DNA of 64,000 bases from contig NZ_JBAMHQ010000001.1 of the NCBI RefSeq assembly GCF_037081775.1, positions 744,001 through 808,000 on the forward strand, given 5' to 3'. Positions 7,884-55,322 of the stretch are shown here, piece by piece. The translations under genes and the position numbers were made by a program. How positions within the stretch are numbered: position 1 is the first letter of the stretch; the number at the start of each line of letters is the position of its first letter. The notes under the pieces were generated by a model. It was not told the DNA's origin and ran no database searches. It saw only the letters and a list, made by a program, of their open reading frames with translations. Origin of the DNA: Haladaptatus sp. ZSTT2. GTDB lineage: Archaea; Halobacteriota; Halobacteria; Halobacteriales; Halococcaceae.

Positions 7884-7968
7884 GCGTGGGTAGCCAAGCC
7901 AGGCCAACGGCGCAGCGTTGAGGGCGCTGTCCTGTAGAGGTCCGCCGGTTCAAATCCGGTCCCACGCA
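7884..7968 (+). tRNA. tRNA-Leu (anticodon GAG)
   Basis: The acceptor stem GCGTGGG pairs with CCCACGC, followed by discriminator A at 7968. The anticodon stem CAGCG/CGCTG closes loop TTGAGGG, so the anticodon is GAG, reading CUC and CUU. A long variable arm follows (class II tRNA), and the T arm is CCGGTTCAAATCCGG. The length is 85 nt with no intron. CCA is not encoded. Confidence 0.95.
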
Positions 7969-54299: not shown

Positions 54300-54569
54300 T
54301 TATGCGGGCTTTTCTGCCATCGGCTTCTCCGCGCGTGCGGAGTAGAGCTGGTACGCGAAGTACAGCTCGTAGACGCCCGCGAGGCCGACGAGGAGATAGA
54401 TGAGGTTCTCAAGCGTCGGAATCGAGCCGAAGATGAGGTTCACGACGTTCCAGTTGGCGTTGATGAAGCCCCCAATCCCGACGAGGCCCCAGTTAAGCGC
54501 ACCCACGATAACGAGGATGAGCGACGCCCAGTCGAGAATGTTTGCTCTAATTCTGCCTTCATACTGCAT
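54300..54569 (-). CDS. DUF378 small membrane protein
   Basis: The 89-residue protein has two transmembrane helices and the DUF378 motif LVIVGALNWGLVGIGGFINANWNVVNLIFGSIP. A second helix with LIYLLVGLAGVYELYFAYQL follows. The family is short and of unknown function, common in bacteria and haloarchaea. It is transcribed away from the gene-free region to its right. Confidence 0.92.
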   Translation of the reverse strand: MQYEGRIRANILDWASLILVIVGALNWGLVGIGGFINANWNVVNLIFGSIPTLENLIYLLVGLAGVYELYFAYQLYSARAEKPMAEKPA

Positions 54570-54771
54570 GGTTTAACACCGAATAAAAGAACGCAGTCTG
54601 AGGAGAAAAAGATGTCTCGTAAGCGTACATGATTGTCAGGTATTATCGTATACACGAGCGTATTGGATTTAATGTAGGTGTGAGTCAGTAACACGCCAAC
54701 AGTCGCTCGATTTACGCGGGCTATAACCCTCCGATTTTTGAGACACTCAGCAGGCGCTGAATAGGAGAAAG

Positions 54772-54778
54772 TATATCA
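54772..54778 (+). promoter_or_regulatory. TATA box for the candidate RNA
   Basis: TATATCA follows the purine-rich GGAGAAAG, a plausible BRE. Its centre is about 26 bp before the start of the first paired stem at 54801, the spacing expected of an archaeal promoter. Confidence 0.55.
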
Positions 54779-54796
54779 TAGAGCAGTTACCGATAC

Positions 54797-54970
54797 CGTC
54801 GGTTAGGCTGGCAGATTTGTGAACTATCTGGGGCAGATGTGGCAGTTCATGAAAAATTTGACTGGCGCTGGCGGACGCCAGTCGGGGTGGCTAACCCATA
54901 GTACAGCTTGCACGACCATGTTGGTCTAGTGGTAATCGTTCCGCGGGGGTTGTTCCTACCAACCACCCCC
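54797..54970 (+). ncRNA. Candidate structured small RNA with own promoter
   Basis: A stem GGTTAG/CTAACC (54801-54806/54891-54896) encloses two further stems as a three-way junction. The first is TGTGAACT/AGTTCATG (54818-54825/54844-54851, two G.U pairs) extended by ATCTG/CAGAT on a GGG loop (54826-54838). The second is the perfect GACTGGCG/CGCCAGTC (54860-54883). Two more hairpins follow: GACCA/TGGTC (54914-54926) and GGGGGTTG/CAACC-a-CCC (54945-54968). No ORF covers the region. GGCAGAT occurs twice (54810, 54832), so ATCTG can pair with either copy, an arrangement that could switch. I recognise no Rfam family; it is neither a tRNA nor RNase P or SRP RNA. Confidence 0.6.
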
Positions 54971-55322
54971 ACCGCAATCGGAGTTCGTTTCATGCATTAC
55001 AACACCACCAAAGACGATGCAGGTAATAAAAGTTCGCTATAAGGACAATAATAGGTCGTTTTAGTATCGAAGGGGCCTAGTAAATCCCACTATTGGAAAA
55101 CAAACATCCAAAATAACTCGCTGTAACTTCTCAAGAGTCGTTTTCTCCAAGTGTAGTGCTGCCAAAGGTTACACCTGACTGGTTTCTCCGTCGGGTACGG
55201 CGATGGACCACCGCACTCAATGAACGTGCCAACGAAAGAATCACACAATCAATCACGGCGGGACGGTAGAACGCGCACACACCCGCCGGGTGGTTTTCAG
55301 TCGGTGGCTCATTGTCCCGGTG
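54971..55322. other. Gene-free interval before the old-yellow-enzyme gene
   Basis: The interval is AT-richer than the genes around it and has several stop codons in all frames. Short frames near 55220 are arginine/histidine-rich and unlikely to be real. No strong promoter box or hairpin was found beyond the RNA at its left. Confidence 0.5.

Follow-up and report, generated by a model that had tools for sequence, protein, structure and literature searches.

A candidate conserved small RNA locus in Haladaptatus sp. ZSTT2, so far found only in its own genus

Positions 54570 to 55322 of the window (the whole 64,000-nucleotide stretch of Haladaptatus sp. ZSTT2 DNA that was analyzed) form an intergenic stretch with a DUF378 gene on one side (minus strand) and a gene for an NADH:flavin oxidoreductase of the old-yellow-enzyme type on the other (plus strand). 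This locus raises the question of whether it encodes an RNA and, if it does, on which strand. A sequence-only reading had proposed a compact RNA gene at 54771 to 54970, transcribed from the plus strand, in a region that no open reading frame explains. On the last point our analysis agrees: between 54570 and 55322 there is no conserved open reading frame or micro-ORF on either strand, and the frames break between the three species of the genus. A conserved noncoding locus is indeed present, but a gene model on the minus strand, which that reading missed, is better supported than one on the plus strand.

Conservation and distribution of the intergenic element

The features that define the locus are as follows.
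54300 to 54569, minus strand: DUF378 (PF04070) gene, adjoining the RNA locus
54885 to 54920, no strand assigned: invariant 36-nt stretch (GGGTGGCTAACCCATAGTACAGCTTGCACGACCATG on the plus strand) in the three-species alignment
55038 to 55083, minus strand: 46-bp block, nearly invariant, that lies upstream of the minus BRE and is a probable activator site on the basis of its conservation

Among 60 relatives compared by blastn, the other two genus members alone gave a match to the element, with 86% and 72% identity. In all three genus genomes it is intergenic and syntenic, with DUF378 and the old-yellow-enzyme-type oxidoreductase on the two sides of 54764 to 55083, and it is conserved in this one genus only. 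The feature proposed at 54771 to 54970 is therefore real but larger than was thought, since conservation extends from about 54764 to 55083. All 36 positions of 54885 to 54920 are identical in the three species, and 55038 to 55083 is mostly invariant, whereas identity with the most distant relative at four-fold degenerate sites ranges from 48% (oxidoreductase) to 69% (sucD). A plus-strand covariance model applied to 18 family genomes detected no homologue in the 15 outside the genus, a minus-strand model applied to 392 genomes of the order (~374 of them outside the family) found nothing else credible, and a blast search of 392 order genomes gave no further credible homologue. The contrast between invariant blocks and four-fold sites, together with the empty searches elsewhere, indicates strong selection and, as far as the genomes examined show, restriction to the genus. 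The conservation, covariation, and alifold results all rest on the three genomes of the genus.

A few matches outside the genus were rejected. A 24-nt blast match in another genus was attributed to chance, as the stretch is well conserved, reads as coding, and has dissimilar flanks. Matches of the minus-strand model in three distant genomes reached only 20 to 23 bits; two correspond to one and the same stretch within coding sequence, and the core is missing from the third. An 18-mer from the core is absent from IMG/VR and has one match, taken as chance, in GTDB 220 contigs (Nitrospinota), in scans that may omit records near the window's own genome.

An arrangement in which no RNA is made, and the region instead carries several protein-binding sites that control the flanking genes at the DNA level, would account for the near-invariance of 55038 to 55083 and for the presence of the DUF378 and oxidoreductase genes at its sides in 3 of 3 species. 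We consider it improbable, because a 36-nt invariant run and a compensatory change in a 9-bp hairpin are unusual for operators, and both start codons are over 300 nt away from the core.

The DUF378 gene is present in 3 of 3 genus genomes and was found in none of the 15 further family genomes examined. Its best homologues come from other families (61% identity in genome G029) and lack the RNA, and a synteny check found no RNA at DUF378 homologues outside the genus. On the other side of the locus, TCACACAATCAATCACGGCGGGACGGTAG (55239 to 55267) precedes the flavin oxidoreductase gene; it is kept in the three species and has no recognizable TATA box. In the relative with the locus L002 (1823 to 2186), an additional ~200 bp separates the conserved block from the oxidoreductase gene.

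Candidate promoter and terminator signals on the two strands

The signals and the transcripts predicted from them are the following.
54764 to 54778, plus strand: promoter candidate GGAGAAAGTATATCA, invariant in three species
54797 to 55001, plus strand: alternative or second RNA of ~205 nt, with a predicted start 25 nt past the plus TATA and GGTTAG/CTAACC in isolated domain 1
55024 to 55037, minus strand: BRE/TATA element, GCGAAC-TTTTATTA, the best minus-strand score with a genome-derived promoter matrix
54851 to 54883, minus strand: terminator candidate, a 9-bp hairpin GACTGGCGT..GCGCCAGTC followed by AAATTTTTC (hairpin plus T5C motif)
54851 to 55003, minus strand: proposed main sRNA of ~153 nt, predicted from three-species conservation, lack of an ORF, and the flanking promoter and hairpin/T5C

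The TATA-like box noted in the sequence-only reading is present (TATATC, 54772 to 54777), and its description as a correctly placed promoter holds, as it is kept at the right spacing in all three species: GGAGAAAGTATATCA is ~25 nt ahead of GGTTAG, which is itself invariant, and the spacer that separates the two varies. The minus strand has an equivalent arrangement, in which the TATA element is followed by a variable spacer of ~25 nt and conservation resumes near 55003. A BRE/TATA element is thus found at the right distance from a predicted start on the minus strand and on the plus strand. The promoter matrix, derived from a rough training set of 141 upstream regions of this genome, scores the minus element at 7.98 and the plus element at 7.28. 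The minus TATA resembles the tRNA TATA boxes of this genome, CTTTTATT. The BRE A residues and TTTAT are kept in all three species, and the substitutions respect both BRE and TATA. The 46-bp block that precedes this element occurs as a single copy in each genus genome.

At the other end of the proposed minus RNA, the hairpin (54860 to 54883) is followed by AAATTTTTC, and the relatives have TATTTTTC and CTCTTTTG. A compensatory change from G-C to A-U preserves the 9-bp hairpin, after which the most distant relative has only TTTTG. In Haloferax volcanii, the intergenic termination signal has been mapped to a run of T that ends in C, and T5C stopped 95% of transcripts (PMC7237163). In the present genome, T5 runs after genes are enriched on the sense strand (46 versus 20). 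Hairpins followed by T5 are rare genome-wide (5 in 928 kb of strand sequence) and do not exceed chance, so the weight of the terminator motif comes from its position. We looked for the promoter and terminator motifs of the minus strand only after conservation had been seen. They would place the start of the RNA near 55003 (±5) and its end at the C of TTTTTC.

Based on conservation, synteny, absence elsewhere, the lack of an ORF, and these motifs, we infer, with somewhat less than even confidence, that the locus is a genus-restricted, independently transcribed intergenic sRNA gene whose main transcript comes from the minus strand. Most of the evidence is accommodated most simply by a minus-strand sRNA with its own regulated promoter and terminator. 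A regulated promoter, consisting of the 46-bp block and then BRE/TATA at 55037 to 55024, would start a transcript of ~153 nt near 55003 when a factor binds that block. What speaks against a model with the minus RNA only is that the plus TATA and GGTTAG are also invariant and lie outside that RNA. Because the plus promoter is likewise conserved and correctly placed, convergent overlapping transcripts are conceivable.

Stems and folding of the two strands

Three further pairings bear on the fold.
54901 to 54913, minus strand: hairpin GUGCA-AGC-UGUAC, with G-U on the minus strand that would be A-C on the plus strand
54914 to 54926, no strand assigned: hairpin GACCA/TGGTC with invariant arms in the three-species alignment
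54932 to 55000, no strand assigned: helix GTAAT (54932 to 54936)/ATTAC (54996 to 55000), invariant islands that pair in the minus MFE structure

Every stem named in the sequence-only reading is present in the DNA: GGTTAG (54801 to 54806), CTAACC (54891 to 54896), GACTGGCG/CGCCAGTC (54860 to 54867/54876 to 54883), GACCA/TGGTC (54914 to 54918/54922 to 54926), the GGGGGTTG hairpin, and the repeated GGCAGAT. The structure built on them fared less well. The stem proposed to close the three-way junction, GGTTAG/CTAACC, does so for domain 1 (54801 to 54896) folded in isolation in 3 of 3 species, but this stem is absent from the full-length MFE structure. The fold of 54797 to 54975 is close to that of shuffled controls (z = -1.30, with 17 of 200 shuffles as good), as is that of plus-strand 54797 to 55003 (z = -0.84; 42 of 200), in which the closing stem is also missing from the MFE structure. 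The minus single-sequence fold is not significant either (z = -1.34). The GGCAGAT repeat, which had been read as allowing a switch between two partners, is specific to this genome and is not kept in the other two species; the switch idea is thus unsupported.

Comparison with the relatives yields three pairs with double changes in three sequences; such compensatory changes do occur, but they are too thin to prove the stems, and shuffles gave covariation as high in 31 of 500 and 29 of 500 trials, ~6% for either strand. Compared with column-shuffled alignments, the minus strand gives the better alifold score in every sub-region: z = -4.0 versus -1.6 on the plus strand for the whole, -6.4 versus -4.3 for domain 1, and -3.35 versus -1.41 for the core.

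The proposal that a plus-strand RNA alone starts near 54797, forms a three-way-junction domain and two hairpins, and ends near 55001 draws on the conserved, correctly spaced TATA box and on domain 1, whose closing stem occurs in three species and whose alifold z is that given above for the plus strand. It appears rather unlikely to us, as its full-length fold is near shuffled and without the junction stem, alifold favors the minus strand, and the invariant 55038 to 55083 block, the minus BRE/TATA, and T5C are left unexplained.

Transcription of both strands, with a plus RNA from ~54797 and a minus RNA from ~55003 that are complementary over ~150 nt and of which one controls the level or binding of the other, is a less likely arrangement than the minus-strand sRNA but one with several points in its favor. 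Both TATA elements are invariant, each is followed by a variable spacer of ~25 nt and then renewed conservation, and in every species GGTTAG pairs with CTAACC when domain 1 is folded in isolation. In the alignment, pairs of the variable arm 54815 to 54850, beyond the minus terminator, are kept by G-U that is valid on the plus strand only, while two varying pairs of the shared body are G-U/U-G on the minus strand and A-C/C-A on the plus strand. Against it, the plus RNA has no clear terminator, and these strand-specific wobble counts, from three sequences, are tiny and suggestive only. That the locus is a conserved sense-antisense pair with convergent promoters, a shared body, and strand-specific folds, which together would make a built-in archaeal RNA control circuit, is doubtful.

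For the favored minus-strand sRNA, the predicted fold begins with a helix GUAAU/AUUAC around a G-rich hairpin (on the DNA, GTAAT/ATTAC encloses the G/C-rich hairpin 54944 to 54975). It would continue with the short hairpins GACCA/UGGUC and GUGCA/UGUAC and an invariant linker and end with the terminator hairpin and UUUUUC. The G runs of GGTGGGGGTGGTTGGTAGG (54955 to 54973, minus strand) are invariant, and in a cytoplasm rich in potassium this sequence could fold into a two-tier G-quadruplex.

Comparison with known RNAs and possible role

The claim that the element matches no known RNA was upheld by Rfam 15, which has no match in the window at the gathering threshold; a permissive search returned one chance match (15 bits versus 45). 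ARAGORN found no tRNA or tmRNA at the locus, the only one in the window being a tRNA-Leu at 7884. Neither SRP RNA nor RNase P RNA lies there, the genome's copies being at C1:2574617 and C1:1871250. Taken with the conservation and the searches of related genomes, the lack of an Rfam match supports the presence of a conserved, structured, noncoding RNA locus outside known families.

The closest described case appears to be sRNA132 of Haloferax volcanii, which is an intergenic, monocistronic RNA of 138 nt with its own BRE/TATA promoter; it is confined to the genus Haloferax, with the same neighbors in nearly all species, and is not reported outside it (PMC6560208). The proposed RNA resembles it in being intergenic, in size (138 versus ~153 nt), in having its own BRE/TATA promoter, and in its restriction to one genus with kept neighbors. 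The likeness is one of description: genus and neighbors differ, and sRNA132 has a known transcript, a regulon, and a link to phosphate.

With archaeal H/ACA guide sRNAs, the locus shares two hairpin domains and nearby ACA-like trinucleotides, but it is restricted to one genus, whereas the Haloferax H/ACA hairpins HP1 and HP2 are reported as conserved in halobacteria (PMC2584109). By eye, we found no pocket complementary to the 23S sites Psi1956, Psi1958, and Psi2621, and no stem flanked by the pocket pairs GGGUCA/GUUAC or GGUC/AACCCA. Pairing of the core with 23S rRNA was not better than that of shuffled sequence, and on these two grounds an H/ACA guide was rejected. Inspection of the upper stem by eye revealed no recognizable kink-turn or K-loop. 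Riboswitch or attenuator leaders likewise have alternative pairings and a terminator hairpin ahead of a gene on the same strand, here DUF378 (minus). In contrast to such leaders, DUF378 lies ~280 nt past T5C and has its own conserved promoter-like sequence, and Rfam gives no match.

The role of the RNA is probably regulatory. Duplex energies of both RNAs with the neighboring genes are unremarkable (a weak comparison, with the accessibility term omitted). No cis target stands out, which points to a trans-acting base-pairing role or a protein-bound RNA; the minus sRNA would use its invariant loops and linker to pair with target mRNAs or to bind a protein. Known functions are few among the sRNAs of this group, to which such an RNA would add a well-delimited, testable gene; should both strands be transcribed, the locus would offer a compact archaeal model of antisense control. 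It also illustrates that promoter spacing and the edges of conservation can correct the strand of an RNA called from folding alone.

Two conserved upstream elements, 54601 to 54615 (GAGGAGAAAAAGATG) and 54764 to 54778, have AGGAGAAA in common on the plus strand. This is possibly a site for a common regulator of DUF378 and the RNA, or it is due to chance.
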